Of a stretch of DNA of 27,859 bases, positions 1 through 25,807 are shown piece by piece. The position numbers and the translations under genes were made by a program. The stretch is from a virus, in the IMG/VR virus record IMGVR_UViG_3300030329_003210, positions 1-27,859 of that record; one strand, given 5' to 3'. Positions within the stretch are counted from its first letter, which is position 1, and every line of letters starts with the position of its first letter. Below the pieces are notes generated by a model. That model was not told the DNA's origin. It saw only the letters and a program-made list of their open reading frames with translations, and made no database searches.

Positions 1-131
1 GTATCATATCCTTATGTCAATAATGAGACATCAAAAAAAAGTAAAATTTTTAAAATATGTGTTGATAATGTGGTAAAAATCTTTTTATATTTCAATACCC
101 AAAAACAAACCAAATAACCGTGGAGACATAA
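1..131 (+). promoter_or_regulatory. Upstream region with candidate promoter for the early operon
   Basis: This is noncoding, AT-rich sequence before the first plus-strand gene. A sigma70-like promoter can be drawn with TTGATA at 62-67 and TATATT at 86-91, with an 18-base spacer. The following gene has a GGAG ribosome binding site at 122-125. Upstream, ATGTC (14-18) and GACAT (27-31) form an inverted repeat with an 8-base centre, which could be an operator half-site pair or chance. AT-rich DNA yields promoter-like words easily, so the promoter is only a candidate. The region may also continue beyond the window edge. Confidence 0.35.
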
Positions 132-902
132 ATGAAACATCCGATTGACATTCAGTCAACATATCACGATCATCTGATCGAAATCAACAAAATAAGACGA
201 GAAGAAATAAATAAGGCTAAGCCTTCAATCCCTCATTATAGACCATCTTCAGCTGGGATGTGTTCTAGAAAAATATACTATGAGACAGTGTTGAGAGTAG
301 AGCCTACAGAAGTTGTAGACAAAAGAGTTCAGAGATTATTTCGATTAGGAGATTTAATTCACAAAGACATTCAAGATGCATTCAAAAAAATTGAAAGAAA
401 CGACTCTTACTTTAGTATATATAATATATATATAAATAATATATATATAGAAAAAGAAATAATATTAAAAAAAATAAGAGTCTTTGGCTTTGCAGATTTG
501 ATTACCGAACTTGATGATGGTCGTGTATATCTTTATGATATCAAAAGTATTGGATCATTTCAATACAAGAAGATATTCTCTAGATACAAGGAGAGGAGAG
601 AGCCTTCCATTCATCAGGAACTGCAATTGGCTACTTATGGTCTTGCAGTTGAAAAGGAGTTTGGTAGGCTTGATGGAATGTTAATTCTGTATTATAACAA
701 AGATACCTCAATGTTGAGGTACAAGGAAGTTAGTAGGGATCGGCTACTAACTGCTCTCGGTTTTTGGGAAAGGATAAATACAGAACATTCTAAAAATAGC
801 CTACCTACTCTTCAAGAGGGAATATCGCCTGTGGCTAGTTGGGAATGTAGTTACTGTCCATTCAAATCTAGATGTGATGAAGATGCTAAGAATGGAGTTT
901 AG
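132..902 (+). CDS. PD-(D/E)XK nuclease, Cas4/AddB-like, with four-Cys Fe-S signature
   Basis: This is a probable DNA exonuclease/recombination nuclease of the PD-(D/E)XK superfamily (PDDEXK_1/Cas4-like). The catalytic core is visible as GFADL (D122), a strand ending YDIKS (D136, K138) and the following helix QLATY (Q165, Y169). One N-terminal cysteine (C44, in GMCSRK) and three C-terminal ones (C239, C242, C248, in CSYCPFKSRC) match the layout that holds a 4Fe-4S cluster in Cas4 and AddB. Its place next to Rad52-like and SSB-like genes suggests end resection in phage recombination. The ATG has a GGAG site six bases upstream. Residues about 96-110 come from an almost pure AT repeat (416-449) and read Y/I/N only, probably a loop expansion between the N-terminal helices and the core. 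The fold is fairly certain; the substrate is unknown. Confidence 0.85.
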   Translation: MKHPIDIQSTYHDHLIEINKIRREEINKAKPSIPHYRPSSAGMCSRKIYYETVLRVEPTEVVDKRVQRLFRLGDLIHKDIQDAFKKIERNDSYFSIYNIYINNIYIEKEIILKKIRVFGFADLITELDDGRVYLYDIKSIGSFQYKKIFSRYKERREPSIHQELQLATYGLAVEKEFGRLDGMLILYYNKDTSMLRYKEVSRDRLLTALGFWERINTEHSKNSLPTLQEGISPVASWECSYCPFKSRCDEDAKNGV

Positions 903-1009
903 TGAACAAAATTATTTACAAGATACTGTCCAAGGCTTTTATATATTGTATTTTAACCATTATATCTATAGCATTTTGGATAGGAATTATATATTTAATA
1001 TTAATATAG
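902..1009 (+). CDS. 35-residue single-pass membrane peptide
   Basis: This small gene starts with GTG overlapping the previous stop (TAGTG), which suggests translational coupling. The peptide begins MNKIIYKILSKAF and continues as an unbroken hydrophobic helix of about 20 residues (roughly 14-35), ending LILI. A basic N-terminus before a hydrophobic segment fits insertion with the N-terminus in the cytoplasm. No family is recognised. Small membrane peptides in early phage operons may target membrane defences or host processes, but nothing here shows a role. The AT-rich composition makes hydrophobic short ORFs more likely by chance, so confidence is moderate. Confidence 0.4.
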   Translation: MNKIIYKILSKAFIYCILTIISIAFWIGIIYLILI

Positions 1010-1034
1010 ATTGAAAATATGAAGAAATAATTCC

Positions 1035-1125
1035 ACAGTCAGCGTTAGAAGAAAAGAATCTTCTTACAAGGTTAGCTGACGAGAAAGGTGGTGAGGGGAG
1101 AGTTACTGTAAAGTTGTTCTCCCCT
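1035..1125 (+). ncRNA. Hairpin-rich noncoding element between early genes
   Basis: There is no plausible ORF here. Three stems can be drawn. GTCAGC (1038-1043) pairs with GCTGAC (1075-1080) and encloses AGAAGA (1047-1052) paired with TCTTCT (1059-1064). Separately, AGGGGAGA (1094-1101) pairs perfectly with TCTCCCCT (1118-1125) over a 16-base loop. The last stem resembles a terminator stem but is followed by AAAATTCTATAAAA rather than a U-run, so it is more likely an mRNA processing/stability element, attenuator or small RNA than a strong terminator. The stems were found by eye; no folding energy was computed. Confidence 0.4.
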
Positions 1126-1152
1126 AAAATTCTATAAAAAATGTATTAGAGG

Positions 1153-1311
1153 ATGAGGAAATTGAAAAAAGTTTTTAAATATACTTGTGCCTATTGTGGA
1201 GATGAGAGGTTTGATAATAAATGGTTTATAGATAATTATATATTTGGACATAAAGCATACTTTGATCAAGAATGTATAGATATGTTAAATAAAGATAAGG
1301 AGCAAAAATGA
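1153..1311 (+). CDS. 52-residue mini zinc-finger protein (CxxC...H...C)
   Basis: This small protein has an apparent single zinc site: C12, C15 (TCAYCG), H33 and C41 (FDQECID). After the last cysteine comes an amphipathic helix, ECIDMLNKDKEQK. The layout matches that of the 56-residue protein at 4668-4838 (CAVC, then H, then HDKCLDNYLKD), so the two look like diverged copies. The stop overlaps the start of the following gene (ATGA). The start is uncertain: the ATG at 1153 has GAGG almost touching it, and a TTG at 1162 in the same frame is an alternative. Function is unknown; comparable mini zinc proteins often bind nucleic acid or host proteins. Confidence 0.55.
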   Translation: MRKLKKVFKYTCAYCGDERFDNKWFIDNYIFGHKAYFDQECIDMLNKDKEQK

Positions 1312-1913
1312 AAGAAGAAATAGTAGCACCAAATGGTACAGGAGAAATATTAGCTACAGAGGTTATTCTGCAGGATAAACATAACAATGTATCTAGCATT
1401 CCTACACCAAAAGCATTTGTTAAGGATAAAGGTGGATTTGATTATGTAGATGAAGCCTATATGAGAAATCAATTAAACACTCATTATCCTATTTGGAAAT
1501 GGGAAATTATAAAATATGAATTTGTAGGAGATAAGGCAATTATAGTACATGGAAGGTTAACTATTATAGATCATGGAGTAGAACGTTATTTCGATAGTGT
1601 AGCGGCACATAGAATTGCATCAAATCAAAAAGGCTATGTTGATATAGGTAATGATTTAAAGGCTGCTAATTCAGATTGTTTTAAAGTTGCAGTTAATAGG
1701 CTCTGTAATATAGCAGATGATGTCTATAGAAAACAGATTCCTAATTTAGAATTATCGGAAGAACAGAAACAATCTATAAATAAAGCATGTGACGGTATAG
1801 ATCATGTTACTATAAGCAAAGTTGTTGAAGGAATGGAAAATATGTCTATAAATTCTACGAATTATGAGGCAACAATTAGAAAACTAGAATCAATAAAAGG
1901 AGAAAGTAAATGA
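1308..1913 (+). CDS. Rad52/Sak-like single-strand annealing protein (putative)
   Basis: Probable recombinase that anneals complementary single strands. It carries a strand-rich N-terminal half (WKWEIIKYEF, AIIVHGRLTII) followed by a helix, GNDLKAANSDCFKVAVNRLC (about residues 113-132). This helix resembles the Rad52/Sak signature in which a Gly-x-x-L-K/E turn leads into an A-x-x-D-x-x-K-x-A helix. The C-terminal part (about 147-201) is charged and helical, as in other phage annealing proteins. The context supports the call: a nuclease lies upstream and an SSB-like gene overlaps its end by four bases (ATGA), the usual phage recombination trio. Length (201 residues) is usual for Sak/DUF1071-type proteins. 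The match is from memory of motifs; a DUF1071-like or unrelated OB protein remains possible. Confidence 0.6.
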   Translation: MKEEIVAPNGTGEILATEVILQDKHNNVSSIPTPKAFVKDKGGFDYVDEAYMRNQLNTHYPIWKWEIIKYEFVGDKAIIVHGRLTIIDHGVERYFDSVAAHRIASNQKGYVDIGNDLKAANSDCFKVAVNRLCNIADDVYRKQIPNLELSEEQKQSINKACDGIDHVTISKVVEGMENMSINSTNYEATIRKLESIKGESK

Positions 1914-2506
1914 CGTCAATAAATGAAATAAATATAGGAGATAATAATAATATGAATTATTATGATCCAAAAGAAAATGTTAATGTTAGTCTAATCCCTA
2001 AACAGTTATATCCTATGCATTGTAAAGAGGTAACTACTAGGATAGTAGATGTTAAGAATAAATATAAAGCAAAAGTCTATAACATTATATATGAAATAGC
2101 AGAAGAATGTGGTAAAATGACATTTATAACAGATAAGGGTGAGATTAATGGTAAGCCATTTATAGGCAAAAAGGTATATGCTAATGGTATTTTTATGTTT
2201 CTTAATCCAAAAGTAGGAGATAATTTTGAGGCAAATAATGGTGCTAATGAAAGATATCTTCAGTTTTGTGAAACTATAAAAGTTAATTGTCCAGAAATTG
2301 AGGTAGATGTAGATGGGGAAAAACGAATGGTTAAACAGTTTCCTGAGTTAACAGAAGATGAGATAATAGGTTCTGCTATTATGGGATATGTTGATACTCA
2401 GAAATATACTGATAAAGATGGAGATGTTAAAACATCTTATAAAGTTAAGGATTTCTCTGAATGGGCAGAAGGTAAAAAGAAAGACTTTGTAGAACTCCCA
2501 TTCTAA
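1910..2506 (+). CDS. SSB-like single-stranded DNA-binding protein (putative)
   Basis: Likely coats single-stranded DNA during replication and recombination. The C-terminus ends KKKDFVELPF, an acidic residue plus hydrophobic Pro-Phe tip like the SSB tails that recruit partner proteins. The preceding segment IMGYVDTQKYTDKDGDVKTS is a strand-turn-strand pattern common in phage OB-fold SSB-like proteins. It follows the annealing protein with an ATGA overlap and an AGGAG site close upstream, so both are co-translated. Another ATG 42 bases downstream could serve as start, because residues 1-14 are Asn/Ile-rich and low in complexity. No Walker or nuclease motif is seen. DUF669-like proteins share this location and are the main alternative. 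Confidence 0.6.
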   Translation: MTSINEINIGDNNNMNYYDPKENVNVSLIPKQLYPMHCKEVTTRIVDVKNKYKAKVYNIIYEIAEECGKMTFITDKGEINGKPFIGKKVYANGIFMFLNPKVGDNFEANNGANERYLQFCETIKVNCPEIEVDVDGEKRMVKQFPELTEDEIIGSAIMGYVDTQKYTDKDGDVKTSYKVKDFSEWAEGKKKDFVELPF

Positions 2507-2664
2507 TGATAAGCCTTGACAGAAAACTCAAGGTAATGCTTTTCTTTAAAAAACTTCTAGGTAAGGATGTTAGATGGGTTTGTAATAAATTAAAAATATC
2601 TAGAGCAACCTTTTATAGACATAAGAAGAAGCTAGATGGAGAAATGGTTATTACCAAGAGATAA
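2506..2664 (+). CDS. 52-residue helix-turn-helix protein
   Basis: This small gene starts on the last base of the previous stop (TAATG), indicating translational coupling. Residues 21-42 (DVRWVCNKLKISRATFYRHK) form a clear helix-turn-helix: helix RWVCNKL, turn KIS, recognition helix RATFYRHKKKL. This resembles the DNA-binding domains of Hin-type resolvases and transposase HTH_28-like modules, but without any catalytic domain. The basic N-terminal helix (KLKVMLFFKKLLGK) may dimerise. It could be an early-gene regulator or a DNA-binding accessory factor. Its end overlaps the next gene by 29 bases. Confidence 0.6.
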   Translation: MISLDRKLKVMLFFKKLLGKDVRWVCNKLKISRATFYRHKKKLDGEMVITKR

Positions 2665-2845
2665 GAAAGAAACAAGAACTTGTGACTCGTGCAGTAAATA
2701 TAAAATGAAAGCAATATTTTATGATTTATATCATCACCCAGCACTTAAATTTTTAGGAGATGGGAGGATAGGTGTTATATGCAGATCATGTGCTGCACGA
2801 GAAGCAGGTTCTAAATTATGGAAGAGAATGCAAAATGAAAGATAA
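2636..2845 (+). CDS. 69-residue zinc-ribbon protein
   Basis: Two CxxC pairs, C16/C19 (TCDSCSK) and C49/C52 (ICRSCAA), are separated by about 30 residues, the layout of a zinc ribbon. The C-terminus is basic (SKLWKRMQNER). It overlaps the HTH gene upstream by 29 bases and the next gene by 11, so it sits in a chain of coupled small genes. No specific family is recognised. Four-cysteine ribbons of this size in phages are often nucleic-acid or RNA-polymerase binders, but that is an inference from the fold only. Confidence 0.6.
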   Translation: MEKWLLPRDKKETRTCDSCSKYKMKAIFYDLYHHPALKFLGDGRIGVICRSCAAREAGSKLWKRMQNER

Positions 2846-3011
2846 TAAAGATTTAGTTAGGCAGATATACACATTAAAGTCTAAACTTACCGTTAGGGAT
2901 TGCCAATGTGAAATAGCGTTAGAAGGCTTAAAAACAATAAAAAATTCAAACGATCCAATGGGAATAGCAGAAAAAACCATATCTGCTATGATGGATTGTT
3001 TACCTGATTAA
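2835..3011 (+). CDS. 58-residue helical protein of unknown function
   Basis: The start chosen is the ATG at 2835, which overlaps the preceding gene by 11 bases. A longer reading from an ATG at 2772 would lie almost wholly inside the previous gene. The protein begins MKDNKDLVRQIYTLKSKL and looks mostly helical, with Lys/Arg-rich N-terminal heptads. It contains a CQC pair (residues 23-25) and one late cysteine, too few and too scattered for a clear zinc site. No family is recognised. Confidence 0.5.
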   Translation: MKDNKDLVRQIYTLKSKLTVRDCQCEIALEGLKTIKNSNDPMGIAEKTISAMMDCLPD

Positions 3012-3030
3012 CTGATGACGTAATAAAAGG

Positions 3031-3073
3031 AAGAGAGGGATTTATGTTTTGGAGCAAGATAAATCTCTCTCTT
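3031..3073 (+). promoter_or_regulatory. 15-bp hairpin over a Shine-Dalgarno-like sequence
   Basis: Bases 3031-3045 pair with 3059-3073 over a 13-base loop, with one G-U pair and no bulge, which is exceptional for this AT-rich genome. The 5' arm contains GAGAGG, five bases before an ATG at 3044, so the stem would hide that ribosome binding site. No U-run follows, so it is not a classical terminator. It may be a translational switch, an RNase III-type processing site or part of the structured region that continues to 3184. Confidence 0.45.
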
Positions 3074-3145
3074 GATCAGATATTTAAATTTAAATATGAG
3101 CAGGCAGTTCCTAGGGTATTCAACCCAAACTCTGGTCTTAGATGA
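3044..3145 (+). CDS. 33-residue ORF with a hairpin-sequestered start (doubtful)
   Basis: The ORF begins MFWSKINLSLDQIFKFKYEQ and ends NPNSGLR. It has a good GAGAGG site five bases upstream, but that site lies inside the 15-bp stem at 3031-3073. The composition is protein-like, yet the ORF is short, has no motif and overlaps a predicted structured RNA. It could be a leader peptide, a decayed gene or chance. Confidence 0.22.
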   Translation: MFWSKINLSLDQIFKFKYEQAVPRVFNPNSGLR

Positions 3146-3184
3146 ATGCATAGCAATCCACATTCTGTCTGCTCAGTTTTTTTT
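3097..3184 (+). ncRNA. Multi-stem RNA-like element ending in U8
   Basis: An 11-bp closing stem pairs 3097-3107 with 3165-3175 (one G-U). It encloses about 57 bases that include a GGGT/ACCC hairpin (3114-3117 with 3123-3126) and a possible TGG/CCA stem (3133-3135 with 3158-3160), giving a three-way-junction look. Eight consecutive Ts follow at 3177-3184, as at an intrinsic terminator. The following gene has its own AGGAG site just after the T-run. This may be a small RNA with its terminator, an attenuator or a terminator with a very large loop. No known RNA family was recognised. Confidence 0.4.
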
Positions 3185-3194
3185 AGGAGAAATA

Positions 3195-3431
3195 ATGGAA
3201 GATAAATATTGGATGATACCCTCAACTACATTAGCTAGTAATAAAATTAGAGAAAATGATAGAGCAGATAGTAGAACTAGAAAAAGTTTTAAAGTAAAAT
3301 TTTGTAATAAATGTAGAAGATGTTGGGAAAAAACTTGGTTTGATTGCAAATTAAGAATTAAATACTATGATGAGTTTACAACTTATGGATTAGAAAGAAA
3401 AGATTGTGAAAAGTGTAGTGAACCATCTTGA
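3195..3431 (+). CDS. 78-residue cysteine-rich zinc-binding protein
   Basis: The start is the ATG at 3195, five bases after AGGAG. The open frame continues upstream only through the structured noncoding stretch. Cysteines are paired as C37/C40 (FCNKCRR) and C71/C74 (DCEKCSE), with further C43 and C51, a zinc-ribbon-like arrangement. The N-terminal 30 residues are charged and likely flexible. It overlaps the methyltransferase start by 26 bases, so the two are probably co-translated. It could be a partner or a regulator of the neighbouring enzymes; there is no direct evidence for a function. Confidence 0.55.
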   Translation: MEDKYWMIPSTTLASNKIRENDRADSRTRKSFKVKFCNKCRRCWEKTWFDCKLRIKYYDEFTTYGLERKDCEKCSEPS

Positions 3432-4536
3432 TTTATTTAGTGGTATCGGTGGTTTTTCCCTAGGAATGAAACAAGCAGGGATTAAACATGGATGGCACGG
3501 TTACTCAGACATAGATAAATACGCTAATAATATATTTAGGAGACATTTTAATGAAGCAGAAGAACTCGGAGGAATTGAGTCTATTCAGCTTAGAAGTATG
3601 CCAAGGCTCGACATCGTCACTTTCGGATTCCCTTGCCAAGACTTGTCAATTGCTGGAAAACGAGGTGGACTCAGAGCATCACGAAGCGGCTTATTCTTTG
3701 AAGCAATGCGAATCATCAGGGCTAAAAGACCCAGATATATCGTCTTTGAAAACGTCAAAGGTCTTTTGTCAAGTAACGAAGGATACGACTTTATCGTCTG
3801 TCTACAAGAGATTGCCAACTCTGGGTATGATGGTCAATGGCAATTACTTAATACACGGTGGTTTCTACCCCAAAATAGAGAGAGGGTCTTCTTTGTTGGA
3901 CATCTTAGAGGAGAACCCAGACCAAAAATATTTCCTATCGGAGAAAACGATGGAGAGAGTGATGAGGTCAGAAAAGAAACAACAAATACCATTATGTCAG
4001 GACAACAAAGATACGACCAAGGAAGTTTCATTATTGAAGATAGACAAGATAGGAAAGTCCAAATAACCAATGTCTCTGAGAGAGAGTATAAAAGACAAGA
4101 TATATGCCCATCATTATTATCTAGAGATTATAAAGATCCTAAGATAGTAATTATAGATAAAGAAGGAAATGAAAAAAACAATCAAGATTATGCATCTTGC
4201 TTACAAGGTGGGGGTAATTCAGGTGGAAATCATTCTGATATGGATTTACTACAAGTAGATAAGATTGCTAATGGAGATGCAGGCAGAGTATTTGATCCAA
4301 ATGGTATAGCTTGTACATTAAAAGCAGAAGGTGGTGGATGGGGTGCTAAAACAGGATTATATAAAATTATGAATAGCAGTATTCGTAGACTTACGCCTAT
4401 GGAATGTGAAAGATTACAAGGGTTTCCTGATGGGTGGACAGAAGGACAATCAGATACACAAAGATATAAACAATTAGGGAATACTGTGAGTGTTCCTGTA
4501 GTACAGTCCATTATGGAAAAATTAAATGATAGATGA
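3406..4536 (+). CDS. DNA (cytosine-5) methyltransferase, orphan
   Basis: Transfers a methyl group from S-adenosylmethionine to C5 of cytosine in DNA. All key motifs are present: motif I DLFSGIGGFSLG (residues 9-20), motif IV GFPCQDLS with catalytic C77, motif VI ENV (115-117), motif VIII QNRERVFFVG (from 156), motif IX RLTPMECERLQGFPDGWT (328-345) and motif X QLGNTVSVPVV (from 356). The region between VIII and IX holds the target-recognition domain, so specificity cannot be read. Translation probably starts at GTG 3406; a GTG at 3418 is also possible. No restriction enzyme lies beside it, so it is likely an orphan enzyme that modifies phage DNA against host restriction. Part of the gene (about 3590-3960) is clearly richer in GC than its surroundings. 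Confidence 0.92.
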   Translation: MKSVVNHLDLFSGIGGFSLGMKQAGIKHGWHGYSDIDKYANNIFRRHFNEAEELGGIESIQLRSMPRLDIVTFGFPCQDLSIAGKRGGLRASRSGLFFEAMRIIRAKRPRYIVFENVKGLLSSNEGYDFIVCLQEIANSGYDGQWQLLNTRWFLPQNRERVFFVGHLRGEPRPKIFPIGENDGESDEVRKETTNTIMSGQQRYDQGSFIIEDRQDRKVQITNVSEREYKRQDICPSLLSRDYKDPKIVIIDKEGNEKNNQDYASCLQGGGNSGGNHSDMDLLQVDKIANGDAGRVFDPNGIACTLKAEGGGWGAKTGLYKIMNSSIRRLTPMECERLQGFPDGWTEGQSDTQRYKQLGNTVSVPVVQSIMEKLNDR

Positions 4537-4666
4537 ATTATATTGCTTAGAGTGTAAAAGTAAGAAGATCGTATTTGGATGTCCTTACTGTTTAAGAGAA
4601 AAAGTTTTAAATATGGAGAAGGAATTAAACTATTACAAAAGAGAACTAGGATTAATAAAGGAGTAA
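4526..4666 (+). CDS. 46-residue zinc-ribbon plus helix protein
   Basis: The ATG overlaps the end of the methyltransferase gene by 11 bases. Two CxxC pairs, C7/C10 (YCLECKS) and C19/C22 (GCPYCLR), are spaced like a minimal zinc ribbon. They are followed by a charged helix, EKVLNMEKELNYYKREL, that could form a coiled coil. No family is recognised. It belongs to a run of tiny zinc proteins in this operon. Confidence 0.55.
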   Translation: MIDELYCLECKSKKIVFGCPYCLREKVLNMEKELNYYKRELGLIKE

Positions 4667-4667
4667 T

Positions 4668-4838
4668 ATGCCACTACCATTCTTCTGTGCAGTATGTGAT
4701 GAGCCTATAGTACCATCTAGGAATAGAAAGCACAATTTAATACATGATAAATGTTTAGATAATTATTTAAAAGATTTTAATGTAAATACAACAAAAGAAT
4801 ATAATAAATCAACTACTACTAATAAAATAAAAAAGTAG
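4668..4838 (+). CDS. 56-residue mini zinc-finger protein, related to 1153-1311
   Basis: It has AGGAG-type ribosome binding sequence (AAAGGAG) upstream and a one-base gap from the previous stop. The zinc ligands are C7 and C10 (FCAVCDE), H22 and/or H26, and C29 (HDKCLDNYLKD). The CxxC-H-C order, the spacing and the helix after the last cysteine parallel the protein at 1153-1311. The tail (about 37-56) is Thr/Asn/Lys-rich and probably disordered. Function is unknown. Confidence 0.55.
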   Translation: MPLPFFCAVCDEPIVPSRNRKHNLIHDKCLDNYLKDFNVNTTKEYNKSTTTNKIKK

Positions 4839-4846
4839 AGGAAATA

Positions 4847-6181
4847 ATGACCGATCTTAATTTACCGCCTTCTTCACAGGAGGCAGAAGATGCTATATTG
4901 GGGGCAATTATTGATTGCCCTTCTATTTTAGATGAAGTTTCTGCATACCTATCTGATAGTATTTTTTATTATGATAGAAGTCGTAGACTATATAATATAG
5001 TATTAAATATGTATAAAAATGGAGAACACATAGATTTAATTACTTTATCTGGTAAAACATCTTCAGAAGACAAGGAAAGAGGAGTAACCTCTTATTATAT
5101 ATCTGGATTGATGGATAATCTAGGTACTAGCTCAATGGCTAAGAGATATGCAATTCAAGTATATGAAAAGCATTTATTAAGAGAGGTTATATCTCAAACA
5201 ACAGAGATATCTCAGTCTGCATATAGAAATAATCAAGATGTTTACAATATATTAGATGATGCTCATTTTACAATAGGACAGCTTATAAATATAAGACCGG
5301 GTCTTACTTTTGATATACAAGATGCATTATCTGATACATTTGAGAATATTATATCTAGTGATAAAAATATTATAAAAACAGGATTTAGTGGTATTGATGA
5401 GTTATCAGGTGGAATGACTAGAGGTGAAATAACTGTTATTGGTGGAAGACCAGGACACGGAAAAACAACTACAATGCTCAATATGGTAAAATCATGTGTA
5501 GATCAAGGACTAAAAGTTATAGTATTTAATAGAGAAATGACAAATATTGAAATGCTAAAAAAACTAATAGTCCTAGAATCAGGCAAATTATCTTATTTGG
5601 ATATTAGGCTTGGTTATGTTGGAGATGTCTTTAAAATGGGCGAATTAGAGACTACTAAACAGAAACTAGAAGAAAAGTATAATAAGGATAGATTTGCTAT
5701 GTTTGACAATATGCCTTCATTTGAAGAATCTGCTGCACAAGTAAAGAAATTTAAGCCTGATGTTATATTTGATGATTATATTCAACTTATAACTCCTGAT
5801 AAAAAGATACCTGAGAGAAGATTACAGTTAGAAAAACTAGTTAATAGTTATAAATGGTTAGCTAAGAAGCAAAAATGTGCATGTATACTATTATCTCAGC
5901 TTAATAGAGGCTTAGAGTCTAGAGGAGATGGTAAGCCAAAATTATCTGATCTTGCAGAGAGTGGAGCAATAGAACAAGTAGCAGAAAATGTATTATTTGT
6001 ATACTATGATCATAAAGTTAATATGAATAAATCTAAAGATGGAGCAAATATAATAGAACTTATAGGATCTAAGGTTAGATATGGAACATCAGGTTCTGTA
6101 AAATTAGGATATGATGGAGATAAGGTAAAAATGTATAATTCACAAGAAGAATATAGGAGTAGTAAATTAAATGAAATATAA
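4847..6181 (+). CDS. dnaB: Replicative DNA helicase, DnaB family
   Basis: Hexameric helicase that unwinds DNA at the replication fork. The N-terminal DnaB domain is clear (PPSSQEAEDAILGAIIDCP, residues 7-25). The RecA-like motor has TGFSGIDELSGGMTRGE (178-194), Walker A GGRPGHGKT (199-207), a catalytic glutamate in FNREM (E230), Walker B DVIFDDYIQL (305-314), LLSQLNR (348-354) and DLAESGAIEQ (368-377). At 444 residues it is typical of the family. No primase gene is recognised in the window, so priming is either encoded elsewhere or taken from the host. The start follows GAGG closely, and the end overlaps the next gene by 11 bases. Confidence 0.95.
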   Translation: MTDLNLPPSSQEAEDAILGAIIDCPSILDEVSAYLSDSIFYYDRSRRLYNIVLNMYKNGEHIDLITLSGKTSSEDKERGVTSYYISGLMDNLGTSSMAKRYAIQVYEKHLLREVISQTTEISQSAYRNNQDVYNILDDAHFTIGQLINIRPGLTFDIQDALSDTFENIISSDKNIIKTGFSGIDELSGGMTRGEITVIGGRPGHGKTTTMLNMVKSCVDQGLKVIVFNREMTNIEMLKKLIVLESGKLSYLDIRLGYVGDVFKMGELETTKQKLEEKYNKDRFAMFDNMPSFEESAAQVKKFKPDVIFDDYIQLITPDKKIPERRLQLEKLVNSYKWLAKKQKCACILLSQLNRGLESRGDGKPKLSDLAESGAIEQVAENVLFVYYDHKVNMNKSKDGANIIELIGSKVRYGTSGSVKLGYDGDKVKMYNSQEEYRSSKLNEI

Positions 6182-6722
6182 TGGAAATATAAAGAAAAAA
6201 AAGATTAGTCCTAAAATATTTATAGGAATTGATCCGGGCAAGAATGGAGGGGTAGCAATTATAAATGAAGTTCCTAATTTTGAAGGAACTATATGCTTTA
6301 GATGTCCTAAGACACCTATTGATATGGCTTATACATTAATATCAGCTATACCTTCAGACATTCCTTATAAGGATGTTCTTGTAACAATTGAGCATGTACA
6401 TGCTATGCCAAAGAATGGTGTAGTTTCAATGTTTTCCTTTGGTCAAAACTTAGGTCAATGGGAAGGTATATTAGGAGCATTTGAACTCAATGTATCATAT
6501 GCTGGTCCTAGATCTTGGATGAGTCATTATGATTGTAAGCCTAATATGGATAAAAAAGATAGAAAAAGATATTTAAGGGGATTGGCAGAAGAACTGTTTC
6601 CAAACATTAAGATGACTTTTAATATTAGTGATGCTTTACTTATTGCTAATTATAATAAAGAAATCTATTATAAAGAGTTGGCAAGTATGCAGGGAAGAAA
6701 CCGTATAAACTCCCCTGCATAG
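6171..6722 (+). CDS. RuvC-like Holliday junction resolvase
   Basis: Metal-dependent nuclease of the RNase H/RuvC fold that resolves branched DNA. Acidic residues expected for catalysis are visible: D21 in FIGIDPGKNGG, E74 in VTIEHVHAMP and D154 in NISDALLIAN. The length (183 residues) fits phage RuvC-like resolvases. It is the last gene of the plus-strand operon, overlaps dnaB by 11 bases, and likely acts with the annealing and nuclease proteins in recombination-dependent replication or in clearing branches before packaging. A lysine-rich stretch (KKKK) lies near the N-terminus. Confidence 0.85.
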   Translation: MKYNGNIKKKKISPKIFIGIDPGKNGGVAIINEVPNFEGTICFRCPKTPIDMAYTLISAIPSDIPYKDVLVTIEHVHAMPKNGVVSMFSFGQNLGQWEGILGAFELNVSYAGPRSWMSHYDCKPNMDKKDRKRYLRGLAEELFPNIKMTFNISDALLIANYNKEIYYKELASMQGRNRINSPA

Positions 6723-6733
6723 CTTGAGGGGAG
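6710..6733 (-). terminator. Terminator hairpin for the late (minus) operon
   Basis: CTCCCCT (6710-6716) and AGGGGAG (6727-6733) form a 7-bp, mostly G-C stem with a 10-base loop. Read on the minus strand the stem is followed by TTTATAC, a short U-rich tail, just after the last late gene. It shares bases 6729-6733 with the plus-strand terminator, so only one of the two can form in a given transcript. Confidence 0.6.
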
Positions 6734-6762
6734 GTATGTTTTACCATATCTCCCTTATTTTT
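6729..6762 (+). terminator. Intrinsic terminator of the early operon
   Basis: GGGAGGTATG (6729-6738) pairs with CATATCTCCC (6745-6754) through ten pairs including one G-U, with a six-base loop. TTATTTTT follows immediately. It lies seven bases after the resolvase stop and overlaps the stop codon of the convergent minus-strand gene. Confidence 0.8.
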
Positions 6763-7679
6763 AATGATACGTTATAGACTGCAGGTGCAACTTGATCAAA
6801 TTGAAAAGAGTTTTGATCAAATGTGCATATTGCAAAATTGTCTAGATCGGTACTAGACCCGTCTGGAGAGAAGATAAAAGGCAAAGCACCACCTGCAGTT
6901 CTATGTATTACCTGTCCATAAAAATCTGTTCCTGTATTTAATCCACCATCAAAATTACTACTATTCATATTTGTTAAATTTAAAGTATCAGGGAATATGT
7001 CAGAATCATTGAAATATGAAAAAGATAGATCCCATATTCTACTTCCTGATTTTGATAAATTGTTATATATGGTATAAGTTTGATTATTTTCTCTTGCTAT
7101 TTCCCATGCACCAAGATCATTGCCCCACTTAGGATTTTTATAATACTGTGTATTAATAAGCGTTGAGCCTCCTCTAGTTGTTGTTTTTTTTACACCTGAG
7201 TAATCATAGTTTATTTTTAATGAAAGATCAGGAGAATGGGGTGTATCAAAATATGAGCCTATTATAATAGAACCTATTTCAAGATTTGTTGTAGAACTCA
7301 TTTTAATTTGAGCAATAGTATTTCCTGTAGTTTTTAAACTCCAACCATCATTAATAGAACCATTTTCAAAATTTATAGATACAGGGTTATTATGATCTAC
7401 ATCACCAATTATTCCAAAATCATCTAAATTTTTATGCCCAAGAACTGCTATAAATGGATTATTTAATTGATATGGAAACTTAAAATTAGCATGGTATTCA
7501 TCATAAATATTATTATCAATAATTAAATCTTGTGTAATTAACGTTGGTTCTTTTAGTTGAACTGGCAATGTATTAAAAATAGAATTATATGATTGATTGT
7601 CAATTGGATTGTAGTTATTAAAATTACAAAATTGTAACTCATTTATCCAAAATCGTGGAGTTTGTACTGTTTGTGCCAT
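6741..7679 (-). CDS. Distal tail/virion protein, unknown
   Basis: Last gene of the late operon; its ATG directly follows the stop of the upstream gene. The 312 residues are rich in Asn, Asp, Ser and aromatic residues and look like a beta-sheet virion protein (INFENGSINDGWSL, KINYDYSGVKK, SLKIREIW at the end). There is no signal peptide, membrane segment or enzymatic motif. Being downstream of the tail-tip protein suggests a tail tip, fibre or receptor-binding component. No family is recognised. Confidence 0.5.
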   Translation of the reverse strand: MAQTVQTPRFWINELQFCNFNNYNPIDNQSYNSIFNTLPVQLKEPTLITQDLIIDNNIYDEYHANFKFPYQLNNPFIAVLGHKNLDDFGIIGDVDHNNPVSINFENGSINDGWSLKTTGNTIAQIKMSSTTNLEIGSIIIGSYFDTPHSPDLSLKINYDYSGVKKTTTRGGSTLINTQYYKNPKWGNDLGAWEIARENNQTYTIYNNLSKSGSRIWDLSFSYFNDSDIFPDTLNLTNMNSSNFDGGLNTGTDFYGQVIHRTAGGALPFIFSPDGSSTDLDNFAICTFDQNSFQFDQVAPAVYNVSLKIREIW

Positions 7680-8386: not shown

Positions 8387-11300
8387 TTACGTACCACAAT
8401 TTCCTTCTAATACACAATTTGATAAAGCAACTATATCTAATACATTAAAACTTCCATCTTCATTTAAATCTGCTGTGCAAGTTGCACCTATTTCAGCACA
8501 ATCATTAGAAAGTATACATTGAGCTAAAGTAACAATATCTAATACATTGTATAAGCCATCATTATTTAAATCTCCTTGCTGTGCTACAGTACAACAATCT
8601 CCTGTTTCACATGATGAAAATATTAAATTTTTATATGCACCGTCTCCAAAAACATATACACCCTCATTTAATTGCCCATAACTGTCATAAATTGTATTAT
8701 AAGAATTAGGAATTAAATATATTTTATATCTATATCTAAATTTTGCTATCTTTCCTTCCTCTCCTCTCCAACCTGACGAATCATAACTATTTGTTAATTC
8801 TGTTGAATCATAATTATCGCTTAACCATTCTAAAAATGATCTATGTCTAAATAAAGGTAGTGTAACTTCTAATGTTTTATTTACTTCGTCATAATTTTCT
8901 ATAGTAGCTTGAACTTCACAGCTTTCCCAACCCTCTCCACATATAAAATCAACATTTTCATTATTTAATGCTTGGCTTAAATTTCTATTTATTACATACC
9001 AACCACCTTCGTCATCATCTATTTGAATTTCTATGTCTTGGTAAATTCTAAATTTCCAATGATCAGAATTAACAAAATCATTTATTCCATGAAACTTTGC
9101 CCTTATAAAAGCATCACCAAGAACAGAGGCATATTCACTTGAATTAGAAGCTATTTTAATTCCTGTAAATTCTTGGGAATTTTTATTTAAATTTGGAGTG
9201 CAATTTATATCAAATACGTTTTCTTCAATTTCACCTGTTTCAGACACCTGATTTAACCAATCTTCTGTAAATGTTCCTTCAGGACAATCGTTTTTAACTA
9301 TACAATTTCCACCATCTTCAGTTTCTAATTGATCGTAATTGTCTAAATCTGTAAAAGCATCACCATTTTCTAAATAACCAGCTAATGGATAACCATTTTT
9401 ATTATAATAATTTGAGTATAAATTAAAATCTAAAGTACTACAGGCTCTTATTATATTAGTTGTTAATATGGGTTTTGAATATACATATTTGCCATCTTTA
9501 TATCCTGCTGGAAAAGTATTATATTCTTCATCTGTTAACTCTACTAAAGCTCCATTTACCTTTTTATATATTTGATTCTGCCCATCTTCAAATCCTGATG
9601 TTGCTATATGTGCAAATAATAACTGATCTTTTTCTTCTTGATATATATCTTGTTCAGGAATTTCATCGCTATTAATACATACAGGAGTATTACAAGGTAC
9701 TTTTCCATTAGGACTTGGTTGCCAATCATAAGCACTAAAAACAATTACAGGATAATATCCATATGTAACTAACTCAGAAGTCTCATTATGAGGAATACGG
9801 TCAAGCGATTTATTCTGAGAACTACAAACATCAGGAAAAACTTCTCCTGTTGATAACCTGTTTCCATAATATCCAGTTAAGCGATCACCTGCAGGTCTTT
9901 GGCTCTTCCAAGTACAATCGTCTGTATTTGTTCCAAAGTCTACCCCTGCACTTCCAAAGCCATCACCTAAATCAAAATTATCTGCATCTGCTAAATCTTC
10001 ACCATTACAATATGCTTGTATAACTCTATATAATTTTTGCCAATCTACATCATCACCTCCGTTTGGATACATATAATCTCTTGCATAAAACCATCCTGCT
10101 CTTTTTCCCTCGTCAGTTAATCCTTGTCTATCAGGCATCAAATTCCATAAATAATTAGGATCAGTAGAATCATCAAGACAAGCAGTTACAGTTAAAGCAT
10201 CTCTGCAATCATGTGTTTGCCCTGTATTACAACCTATATAATTAATCGCATATTCATCTCCACAGTTATTACACCCAACAGTAGGATCAAGTAAATTCTC
10301 ACAATCTCCCCCACAAACTCCACATTGATCCTCAACTGCATCGCCATTACAAATACCATTACAGTCTACAACTGCATTACCATCACACTCACCTAAACAA
10401 TCAAAAGTATCAGAAGGACAATCATTGCAAACTCCTCCATCATTATTATCGCATAGTGGTGAAAGCACATCTTCTACAAACCAATCTTGACAATTTTCTA
10501 TTGGATAATATTGCCCCTGCCCACAACCTATATCTCCATATTTCTCTCTATCTTCGCATTGATAACAAAATGCGGCAGGAACACCATCACAATTAATATA
10601 TGGCTGTGGATTATCTCCGTAATAAATAAATTCACCTTCTTGTCTTGCTATTCCACCACATTCACCACATGCATCTTCTACGCTATCCTGTGAACACATA
10701 CCATCAGGGGATCCAGTTATATTGCTATCAGGATCATCTACACAATTTGCTTCTGAATAATTTACAAGATGTGGTAGCTGTATACATTCAATTTCACAAA
10801 AATCTAAATTTTTATTTGTTTTTAATATAAAAAATCTTCCATACATAATTTGCGATGTTGTACTAACTTCTCCTGTTTCAATAGGAGGCATAAAAGTATT
10901 ATTCTTTGTATAATCTATATTATATGGCTTTACACTTGCACCAAGCAGTTCATCAAAATCAATTACATCACCAATCTCTAACTCCATATAATACAATGGT
11001 AGTTTTACTTTTAAAATTAGCTTTTGGTTTCTATACCATGATAAAAGCCACTTTGCTACCATTTCAGCAGTACAAGTTCTTCTAATGTATTTACCTCTAT
11101 CATCATCTATAATAAGAGTTGAAGGCTGTTTTAATCCATAGTAATCATAAGTATCTTGTGGATATTCAAGTTCTGCTGTAATTTTTTTTGTTAATTTTCT
11201 TGCTCCATAATCATAATGGTAATGCAATTCCACCCTATTATATACTTCTTCTATCTTAGTTCTTTTATAAGTAAAATCAATACAATCTTTTGCTTTTATT

Positions 11301-13231
11301 GTCTTAACAACACTTCCACCATTAAAAGGTATTTCATTTAACGTAAAACCTTTTATTGTATTATATCTTGGTATATAAGGAGAAGATGATGCTATTGTTT
11401 CAAATAACTTCTTAGAATTTATTTTTTTATTTAAAGTTACATCATATATAAAATTATTTGCTAAATCACCATTATCATTTGTTCCGCTTCCTGTATAATT
11501 ACCTTCTGATAAATTAATATTTTGTCCAAGCTCTGAATTTGAAATACTAGAAAATAAAGATGCTATAGTAGGCGTTTTAAGTCTACCAACTATATTTGCA
11601 TAAAAATTTTTATCTAAAAAATTAACATTCCACCAATATGTATGAGTTAATCCAACTCCATGAGTATCTACAAGCAAATTAAGATAAGTTTGCCCACCCC
11701 ATTGTAAAGGTCTAAATTCTAAAGTATATTCGTGCATAGCTATATGCCATAAACGTGTTATATTTAGCTGTTTTTCATTATACTCTGATACATTAGAGCC
11801 ATCAGTTGTAAAAGTAAGTACCTCTTCTAATACTTTTCCATTTTCTTCTGATGTATTGTCAACTATATTAAATCCAAGGTTAATTGATCCTCCATATCCT
11901 ATTATTGCAATATTTATAACACCTGATAGCTCTGTATGAACTGAGCCTTCAAAATCTGTAATATTTGGAAACACTATTCTTAAAGCTGCATTTGAAAATA
12001 TTAAATTATTGATATTGGTCATATCTAAATTTGATTGTATTATTCCTTGATTTTGTATATTTCCATTATTACCTGTATATCCAAATCTAAATTTATTATC
12101 TATACCAGATGGTTTCTCTGGTACAATATCATGTCCATATGCTGACCATGATCCTTCAAACGGATCATTAATTATCCATTGTTCAATTACATTTTCTCTT
12201 TTACATTGAACAAGTCCTGATGAAATTAAATTTTTATTTTTTACAGTTGTTAATAATTCATCTAAATCGTCAAGACCCATAGCAGAGTGATAAGAAAAAT
12301 AAAAAATTGAAGGTAATATAATATTTGGAGAATTATTAGATATTCTATAAATATCATTAACTTGAAAATCATAAAATGCTTCTGGCATTGTTTGATTTAC
12401 ATCAAGTTTTTGAACTAAGTCTCTTTCTTTATTTTCTAAAACTTCACAATGTCCATCAGATGTATAAATATATAAAGGTGGATCATTATATGTTACATCT
12501 TCTGTTTCACAATGTAAATTATAGTTAACAACACCTTTTGCCATTCCAGTAAAAGCTGCAGATTCAACTGTTTCTGATTTATTCCATATAATAGGACTTC
12601 TATCTACATTTCCATATACTTTTGGAATAGGACTATCTATATATTTATCAGGAACATCTCCTGACAAAGTTTCTGTTACAATATCATTATGAAAAAGGTC
12701 TTGACTTTTATCTTCTAAAGTTATATTTACCTCAGAATCATTGTGTTCATACCTTCTAATTACTCCATAATACATTTGAAAAGCTGAATTTATCCTTTGT
12801 TCCTGTGTAGTATTATGTTTTTCTGTATAAATAATTTTAGTAGAAGGGGATAACCAAAATATTCTACATTCTAAATTAATTAAAGATGTATCTACCATTT
12901 CCGAAAATCGCTTATCATTATAAGGTAAATTTGAAATTCTTATATTAACAGAACTTATTTTATAATTTCGCTTTTCTATATCTATTGATTCTTTTAAAGA
13001 TGGTATACTTATAAGAGTTGGAATTGATGATGTAGGTGCTGCTATACCATCGTTTGTTGCTATTCCTTGAATAGGTATGCTTAATTGATTAGTTGAAAAA
13101 TATCCTACATAATTACTCCATTCTATACTACTACCTTGTAATGGGAAATTACCAATAACAACAACTGGAATTAATGATATAGATTGGCTTTCTAAGTCTT
13201 TGTTAAAGCTAGGTGGTAGTGTTAATGCCAT
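8387..13231 (-). CDS. 1614-residue tail tip/adhesin with Cys-rich module and C-terminal dockerin
   Basis: This is the largest gene here. The N-terminal ~800 residues look like a siphovirus tail hub/baseplate protein (VNIRISNLPYNDKRF, ITLEDKSQDLFHND; a section on coordinate-like turns near YYMELEIGDVIDFDELLGA). Residues about 830-1020 are a cysteine-rich module with DCLGECDGNAVVDCNGICNG and DQCGVCGGD repeats. The last 62 residues (1553-1614) contain two type I dockerin-like Ca-binding repeats, DLNNDGLYNVLDIVTL and DLNEDGSFNVLDIVAL, each with the DxNxDGxxNxxD pattern. Dockerins dock to cohesins or serve as surface modules in bacteria, so this tail likely contacts a host surface scaffold. It follows the tape measure and Cys-rich gene, as tail-tip proteins do. 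The domain calls are by motif; the middle (about 1020-1550) is unassigned. Confidence 0.75.
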   Translation of the reverse strand: MALTLPPSFNKDLESQSISLIPVVVIGNFPLQGSSIEWSNYVGYFSTNQLSIPIQGIATNDGIAAPTSSIPTLISIPSLKESIDIEKRNYKISSVNIRISNLPYNDKRFSEMVDTSLINLECRIFWLSPSTKIIYTEKHNTTQEQRINSAFQMYYGVIRRYEHNDSEVNITLEDKSQDLFHNDIVTETLSGDVPDKYIDSPIPKVYGNVDRSPIIWNKSETVESAAFTGMAKGVVNYNLHCETEDVTYNDPPLYIYTSDGHCEVLENKERDLVQKLDVNQTMPEAFYDFQVNDIYRISNNSPNIILPSIFYFSYHSAMGLDDLDELLTTVKNKNLISSGLVQCKRENVIEQWIINDPFEGSWSAYGHDIVPEKPSGIDNKFRFGYTGNNGNIQNQGIIQSNLDMTNINNLIFSNAALRIVFPNITDFEGSVHTELSGVINIAIIGYGGSINLGFNIVDNTSEENGKVLEEVLTFTTDGSNVSEYNEKQLNITRLWHIAMHEYTLEFRPLQWGGQTYLNLLVDTHGVGLTHTYWWNVNFLDKNFYANIVGRLKTPTIASLFSSISNSELGQNINLSEGNYTGSGTNDNGDLANNFIYDVTLNKKINSKKLFETIASSSPYIPRYNTIKGFTLNEIPFNGGSVVKTIKAKDCIDFTYKRTKIEEVYNRVELHYHYDYGARKLTKKITAELEYPQDTYDYYGLKQPSTLIIDDDRGKYIRRTCTAEMVAKWLLSWYRNQKLILKVKLPLYYMELEIGDVIDFDELLGASVKPYNIDYTKNNTFMPPIETGEVSTTSQIMYGRFFILKTNKNLDFCEIECIQLPHLVNYSEANCVDDPDSNITGSPDGMCSQDSVEDACGECGGIARQEGEFIYYGDNPQPYINCDGVPAAFCYQCEDREKYGDIGCGQGQYYPIENCQDWFVEDVLSPLCDNNDGGVCNDCPSDTFDCLGECDGNAVVDCNGICNGDAVEDQCGVCGGDCENLLDPTVGCNNCGDEYAINYIGCNTGQTHDCRDALTVTACLDDSTDPNYLWNLMPDRQGLTDEGKRAGWFYARDYMYPNGGDDVDWQKLYRVIQAYCNGEDLADADNFDLGDGFGSAGVDFGTNTDDCTWKSQRPAGDRLTGYYGNRLSTGEVFPDVCSSQNKSLDRIPHNETSELVTYGYYPVIVFSAYDWQPSPNGKVPCNTPVCINSDEIPEQDIYQEEKDQLLFAHIATSGFEDGQNQIYKKVNGALVELTDEEYNTFPAGYKDGKYVYSKPILTTNIIRACSTLDFNLYSNYYNKNGYPLAGYLENGDAFTDLDNYDQLETEDGGNCIVKNDCPEGTFTEDWLNQVSETGEIEENVFDINCTPNLNKNSQEFTGIKIASNSSEYASVLGDAFIRAKFHGINDFVNSDHWKFRIYQDIEIQIDDDEGGWYVINRNLSQALNNENVDFICGEGWESCEVQATIENYDEVNKTLEVTLPLFRHRSFLEWLSDNYDSTELTNSYDSSGWRGEEGKIAKFRYRYKIYLIPNSYNTIYDSYGQLNEGVYVFGDGAYKNLIFSSCETGDCCTVAQQGDLNNDGLYNVLDIVTLAQCILSNDCAEIGATCTADLNEDGSFNVLDIVALSNCVLEGNCGT

Positions 13232-25782: not shown

Positions 25783-25807
25783 ATAGGGGGGCATTACACC
25801 CCCCTAT
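25783..25807 (-). terminator. GC-rich hairpin after the major capsid gene
   Basis: ATAGGGGGG (25783-25791) pairs perfectly with CCCCCCTAT (25799-25807) over a seven-base loop. Six consecutive G-C pairs stand out in this AT-rich genome. On the minus strand it lies between the capsid stop and the next ribosome site and is followed by ATATTTAGG. Partial termination here would give extra capsid mRNA relative to downstream genes, or the stem may protect the capsid transcript 3' end. The plus-strand side is followed by TATTATTATTATTATTTTAT. Confidence 0.65.

Follow-up and report, generated by a model that had tools for sequence, protein, structure and literature searches.

What is the folded region at positions 3,031 to 3,184 of a stretch of phage DNA from a metagenome, and does it belong to a larger class? 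The stretch, called the window here, is the 27,859-base virus record IMGVR_UViG_3300030329_003210, which has no close cultured relative in the phage collection we searched. An initial annotation described a 15-bp hairpin and an 11-bp closing stem ending in U8, and compared the region to a small RNA or a regulatory leader between early genes. From this one odd fold we arrived at a well-supported and apparently undescribed family of phage RNA structures, named F1, with strong covariation and no match in Rfam. The early observation was right and its interpretation half right; the window holds a damaged or rebuilt version of F1. The parts of the region are as follows.

3031–3073, plus strand: the 15-bp hairpin, arms 3031–3045 and 3059–3073, from the fold and the stem scan
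3044–3145, plus strand: open reading frame (ORF) of 33 codons following GAGAGG, not conserved and probably not a gene
3080–3097, unstranded: perfect 18-nt AT palindrome, ATATTTAAATTTAAATAT, linking both stems (self-match on the opposite strand)
3097–3175, plus strand: stem-closed domain at the F1 site, closing helix kept and core lost
3097–3107, plus strand: 5′ arm of the closing helix, TGAGCAGGCAG, where several F1 relatives have TGAGCAGGTA
3108–3164, plus strand: interior of the closed domain
3165–3175, plus strand: 3′ arm of the closing helix, CTGTCTGCTCA
3177–3184, plus strand: run of eight Ts, seen in this copy only, giving the stem a terminator-like look

Both stems are present. The hairpin has 15 consecutive pairs and the closing stem 11, each with one G-U pair; 23 nt separate them, and the eight Ts are where they had been reported. 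The GAGAGG site lies at 3033–3038, five nt 5′ of the ATG at 3044. Folding of 3025–3190, proposed as a check in the initial annotation, gave a minimum free energy (MFE) of −46.2 kcal/mol and a z of −2.70, with 3 of 200 shuffles as good; for 3090–3185 folded alone the z was −2.76 (1 of 200 shuffles as good). The stem background was taken from 100 dinucleotide shuffles of the window in blocks of 1000 bases. A shuffled window contained on average 0.05 stems of 15 bp or longer with no more than one G-U and a span of up to 100, and 0.02 stems comparable to the 11-bp one (six or more G-C pairs, span up to 90); the window has exactly one of each. Both window stems are beyond chance by these thresholds, which were chosen after the stems had been seen. 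As for the multi-stem element that had been described, its outer stem stands; its branched interior is drawn in the MFE structure but is not robust, since the centroid leaves 3108–3164 unpaired.

Could the stretch simply encode protein? The absence of a good coding frame, noted at the outset, holds broadly. Each of the six frames of the 3097–3175 element contains a stop in 10–21 of 22 sequences (the window and 21 homologues), and by this count no conserved reading frame passes through it. A coding stretch, either the 33-codon ORF, whose ATG follows GAGAGG, or the open TTG frame from 3072, is extremely improbable because no frame is conserved.

Five closely related records were identified by protein search: L003, L004 (identical to L003 here), L005, L006 and L007. 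A hairpin and then a closed domain lie between small upstream ORFs and a methyltransferase gene in L003, L004 and L007. The genes flanking the gap on each side are common to the window and L003; with L007, the next genes out are common. The slot in L006 holds a different stem-closed hairpin (GGATACCGAGAAACG type) plus a further gene, and the L005 contig begins too late to show it. Ordinary blastn leaves the slot itself unaligned though both sides align, so the slot changes fast. L003 and L007 share ACGTTTCT...ACCTTGRTGAA, and a scan of viral contigs with this pattern yielded 14 stretches, five of them with a closing stem abutting the core. These five include L028 and L034, phages with different genes. 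Following a protein common to L028 and L034 gave 20 loci: the element is present in 13, one (L131) has the stem only, and none was found in the other six. The last scan, with GTACGYTTC...TTGATG...ARCTRC, gave 63 stretches, three within loci examined earlier and 60 at sites elsewhere. Only the six innermost pairs were fixed by this pattern. The outer pairs were not part of it, and the 60 sites are therefore an independent test of the outer helix. Beyond the pattern, 6–12 outer pairs are formed at 12 of the 60 sites, 0–2 at 48 and 3–5 at none; two of these 12 belong to records identified before under different locus names.

F1 comprises 21 distinct versions of 63–98 nt in 26 metagenomic virus records. 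Uncultivated phages of two or more gene-content groups carry it on the coding strand, between early genes. The intact domain is closed by a helix of approximately 10–14 bp, with a bulged C, GYUUC, YUUGAUGA and CC-ARC towards the helix base. The consensus reads stem, GUA, bulged C, GYUUC, YUUGAUGA, variable hairpin, CC, ARCURC, stem. In a model search over whole records 16 of 26 gave a single strong match each, and in a second search 10 of 13 did. The 21 members used to build the model R2 score 52–77 bits, and chance pattern matches without the helix reach 16.6–22 bits. A looser core pattern returned 94 stretches and no member beyond five records already known; 94 loci from the pattern scans, scored with R2, gave at best 22 bits (E 0.03), without the full helix. 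Two matches to the core in genome contigs (one of 18.4 bits, E 0.27; the other not listed with R2) were taken as chance.

Compensatory changes in relatives, named in the initial annotation as a further check on the fold, are present in the closing stem across the family. In the 13-pair helix aligned over the 21 versions, 98.9% of 273 cells are paired. Two-sided changes occur in 8 pairs, a number reached by 6 of 500 shuffles, and in 40 cells, compared with 11.4 in shuffles and 0–6 when slid; this alignment was fitted to a model made from 11 of its own rows, so the counts lean towards that helix. The alignment of the earlier 11 versions was made with MAFFT and without structure; its rows came from pattern and stem scans and had been cut at the ends of the stem. 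For 13 pairs, pairing held in 99.3% of 143 cells; two-sided changes affected 7 pairs and 25 cells, the latter compared with 8.5 in shuffles and 0–4 when slid. The window is absent from both alignments. Also left out of the 21-sequence alignment were duplicates from sister records (L004, L124, L126, L129, L134, L159, L162 and L168) and the stem-only L131. The inner pairs covary as well, GYU changing together with ARC.

The helix also carries information on the strand. There are 16 G-U cells and one A-C cell, a comparison weakened by the position of 11 of the 16 at a single pair and by the stem scans, which counted G-U and not A-C as paired. Subject to this bias, the G-U excess favours an RNA of the coding strand. 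With the same caveats it argues against a DNA-level element (a single-strand replication start, or a recombination or packaging site) that merely resembles RNA. Such an element would suit the single strong match per record, the nearby replication genes in the window and the different occupant of the slot in L006; overall we consider it very unlikely.

How does the window compare with the intact family? Its closing helix falls in the F1 range (at least about 10 pairs around approximately 40–80 nt, in a syntenic early-gene slot), and the closing stems are near-identical, TGAGCAGGCA in the window and TGAGCAGGTA in relatives. The bulged C is missing, two of the three inner GYU/ARC pairs are broken, and there is no intact YUUGAUGA box. 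Models made without the window score only the outer helix of its copy. One of them gave it 15.8 bits (E 0.097), the best score in the window, and R2 gave it 12.8 bits (E 0.23), the second best. A pattern modelled on the window interior found nothing in viral contigs and only itself in the window's own record. The interior bears a weak likeness to single members; the score with L123, the best of 12 members, was reached by 3 of 500 shuffles. Because of the low model scores and this weak likeness, the window copy was not classed as a full F1 member. The most fitting interpretation is a derivative of F1, eroded or rebuilt, in which the outer helix has been kept and the conserved core lost. Synteny and the near-identical stem make descent from an intact F1 likely rather than proven. 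L131 is likewise a helix without the core at 3927–3975.

Two features noted at the outset turn out not to be general. In the other 21 versions, T-runs in the 15 nt 3′ of the stem reach four at most; the U8 end is peculiar to the window copy, and a short transcript ending at 3184 would therefore be special to it. The second is the hairpin masking a start site: by eye, L003 and L007 have a different hairpin there and no matching ORF, and in L028 and L034 no such hairpin can be seen ahead of the element. What remains of the early interpretation is a structured RNA between early genes. The U8 end does raise the possibility that the 11-bp stem of the window is an intrinsic terminator or attenuator limiting transcription into the 78-aa ORF and the methyltransferase gene downstream, a role compatible with an origin in F1. 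The stem is followed by a G and then directly by the eight Ts, and terminator-like sites are over-represented in positions 1–7000 (12 found, 2.5 expected, both strands). The loop, however, measures 57 nt, far longer than usual, so that the stem was not listed by the terminator scan (loops of 3–8), and nothing comparable to the T-run follows the stem in the other 21 versions. We regard termination as possible but rather doubtful.

Where does F1 sit with respect to the genes around it? Among the 22 sequences, 14 have a long upstream ORF whose stop codon falls between 14 nt before the stem and 7 nt inside it, and 18 have a downstream start at −1 to +32 nt relative to the stem end. This placement beside stop and start codons favours a cis role in a polycistronic early mRNA. 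Our preferred reading, held at roughly even confidence, is that 3097–3175 is the slot of a conserved F1 element, likely cis-acting in the early mRNA, and that the window copy is eroded or rebuilt. F1 would then act within the early mRNA, where its closing helix may insulate or process the junction of two cistrons and would leave the next ribosome-binding site free. The conserved nucleotides at the helix base suggest recognition by a factor; a protein or some other ligand probably binds the core. The window copy, with its stem and U8, may end part of transcription before 3195.

Several observations weigh against this reading. Further pair types in the helix are no more frequent than in shuffles (14 versus 13.8; 21 versions). 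With R2, a terminator-like hairpin at 25784–25806 outscores the window copy, and the whole-record model search, listing matches with E up to 1, has none in the window. The window interior is not significantly related to the family as a whole (the summed score was reached by 40 of 500 shuffles), and nhmmer with 3108–3164 found no homologue among 211 loci. With no significant interior relation and weak model scores, the argument for descent by core loss comes down to synteny and the stem. Placement varies too. Eight of the 22 sequences have no long ORF ending near the stem; the nearest upstream ORF ends 68–93 nt before it in the window, L003 and L007; the next start is at +67 in one sequence, and none was found within 70 nt in three. 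The F1-flanking genes differ between phages on both sides, a poor fit to a regulator of one gene. A trans-acting RNA or a specific binding site would account for the conserved single-copy core no less well than a generic insulator does.

A trans-acting small RNA would be a closed domain that is cut from the early mRNA or transcribed apart from it and binds a phage or host factor; the window copy would be a decayed gene. The core near the helix base, the one strong match per record and the variable genes on both sides agree with such an RNA. The lack of a conserved T-run after the stem (longest four, 21 versions) speaks against it, as do the absence of a promoter excess in the first 7 kb of the window (33 found, 39.1 expected) and the way F1 mostly fills the intergenic gap and adjoins a start codon. 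On balance we think it unlikely, and keep to a cis-acting element as the preferred reading. As a separate observation, in L125 (9990), L135 (12856) and L180 (3704) the closing stem (CCCCCTTATGAAAC) shares its last base with the start codon of the following ORF. No Shine–Dalgarno sequence lies between stem and ATG in these three, and AAGGGGG is found on the opposite arm.

Is F1 a known RNA? Rfam release 15 at the gathering score gave no matches in the window, and only four transfer RNAs in 10 relatives. A permissive Rfam search on the window region, L028 and L003 returned only microRNA, small nucleolar RNA and other weak matches far below gathering scores, which were rejected. CTGATGA at 3012 resembles a hammerhead core; Rfam listed no hammerhead. 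No title or abstract opening found in the open-access literature describes the F1 motif, which does not show that the motif is unpublished. RNase III processing hairpins lie between the early genes of T7 as stable stems just upstream of ribosome-binding sites, as F1 does. RNase III sites, unlike F1, are not known to have a conserved sequence core.

The RNA motifs manA, wcaG and PhotoRC-II come from marine metagenomes and cyanophages (PMC2864571). Like F1, they are conserved structured RNAs in metagenomic or phage sequences whose function was unproven when they were described; they are, however, tied to particular metabolic genes and present in Rfam, where F1 has no match. The put RNA of phage HK022 (PMC9378689) shares with F1 a folded form, a length of approximately 70 nt and a place on the coding strand of an early phage operon. 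A put-like antiterminator would bind the elongating polymerase and confer resistance to downstream terminators, and terminator-like hairpins do occur in the operon. In that source, however, put consists of two stem-loops downstream of early promoters. F1 has a single stem-closed domain, set inside the operon between genes that vary. The window does show two consecutive stems, the first of which L028 and L034 lack. We judge a put-like role highly improbable.

Is F1 alone in its slot? At least four further stem-closed RNA families occur in the related phages, one of which replaces F1 in the same slot in L006. The second family (GAATTGG...ACGGTGTTGAA near the base, 9 sites) has a covarying closing helix; RNAalifold on 8 of the 9 sites, leaving out L132, gave 21 pairs, 10 with two-sided changes. 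The third is a hairpin whose loop reads GGAYACCGAGAAACG; it occurs at 7 distinct sites, with two-sided changes in 6 of its 11 pairs, and in L006 and L016 it occupies the slot that holds the structured segment of the window. Two smaller families have GGAAGGGTCAA...ATATTGACG at 4 sites and AACGGAAGG...AGTAACTT at 2 sites; rows of the fourth pattern with 2–3 mismatches were dismissed as chance. The sites are listed below.

Second family: L034 8468–8561 (minus strand); L120 1225–1341; L125 106–204 and 546–667; L128 2952–3069; L132 1888–2032; L133 2934–3085; L135 2864–2976; L136 2609–2707
Third family: L016 4921–4978; L125 1781–1830; L131 4830–4880; L132 2945–3001; L133 5045–5104; L135 5165–5218; L136 4792–4851
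Further small families, stem-closed and intergenic: L123 2087–2195, L127 2366–2441, L131 2877–2948 and L137 2800–2890; L028 2800–2886 and L120 4699–4786

The further families are intergenic, and a ribosome-binding site lies just 3′ of many. The existence of several such families places the window slot within a habit of these phages of setting folded domains between early genes. Taken further, the five or more exchangeable families, each with a core near its base, could be parts of a shared system that passes ribosomes or polymerases on to the next early gene. In such a system the domain may hold stop and start together so that ribosomes bridge it, and the window would have retained nothing but the bridge stem. 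We consider this proposal improbable. Structured RNA in the operons of uncultivated phages appears to be under-annotated, as these findings suggest, and the families provide a concrete target set for RNA sequencing, probing and deletion. Separately, L034 has a structured, non-coding-looking stretch of approximately 400 nt before an ORF (about 9970–10400, minus strand), where Rfam gave no match; a stem from this stretch, TTTGGTCATAC...GTATGACCAGA, is found again in L138 at 1035–1112.

The structured segment of the window lies within a rightward early (replication and recombination) module, assigned from Pfam and PHROG matches. The genes are listed below.

132–902, rightward: Cas4-like exonuclease
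1308–1913, rightward: protein weakly matching single-strand annealing proteins
2636–2845, plus strand: small zinc-ribbon-like ORF of 69 aa, with only sub-threshold Zn-ribbon-type Pfam matches
2835–3011, plus strand: gene of 58 codons directly upstream of the structured region; its homologue is a 61-aa ORF of L003
3185–3431, plus strand: Shine–Dalgarno AGGAG (3185–3189) and the downstream 78-aa Cys-rich ORF, ATG at 3195
3406–4536, plus strand: C-5 cytosine DNA methyltransferase, the conserved right flank of the slot (Pfam PF00145, E 6.2e-68)
4847–6181, rightward: DnaB
6171–6722, rightward: Holliday junction resolvase

The 69-aa ORF is syntenic in L003 and L007, and in L006 by DNA. The 58-codon gene was not seen in L006 or L007 and had no match in the PHROG search; Pfam and PHROG searches with the 78-aa ORF gave no match. 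The 5′ part of the methyltransferase gene, approximately 520–540 bases, shows 87–91% DNA identity to L003, L006 and L007. Among cultured phages, blastn with the region matched 53 records, and the 20 listed align in the methyltransferase part only; all 1225 records matching DnaB are below 60% identity. Neither the 367-aa protein of L028 nor the 262-aa protein encoded upstream of F1 in L133 gave a match in cultured phages. The protein downstream of F1 in L184 matched 12 cultured-phage records, primases where annotated, at less than 60% identity. Elsewhere in the window, an intergenic gap at 1038–1125 contains a second pair of stems, GTCAGC...GCTGAC and AGGGGAGAGT...GTTCTCCCCT, and the minus strand at 8387–13231 encodes a 1,614-aa protein with a dockerin type I domain at its end.
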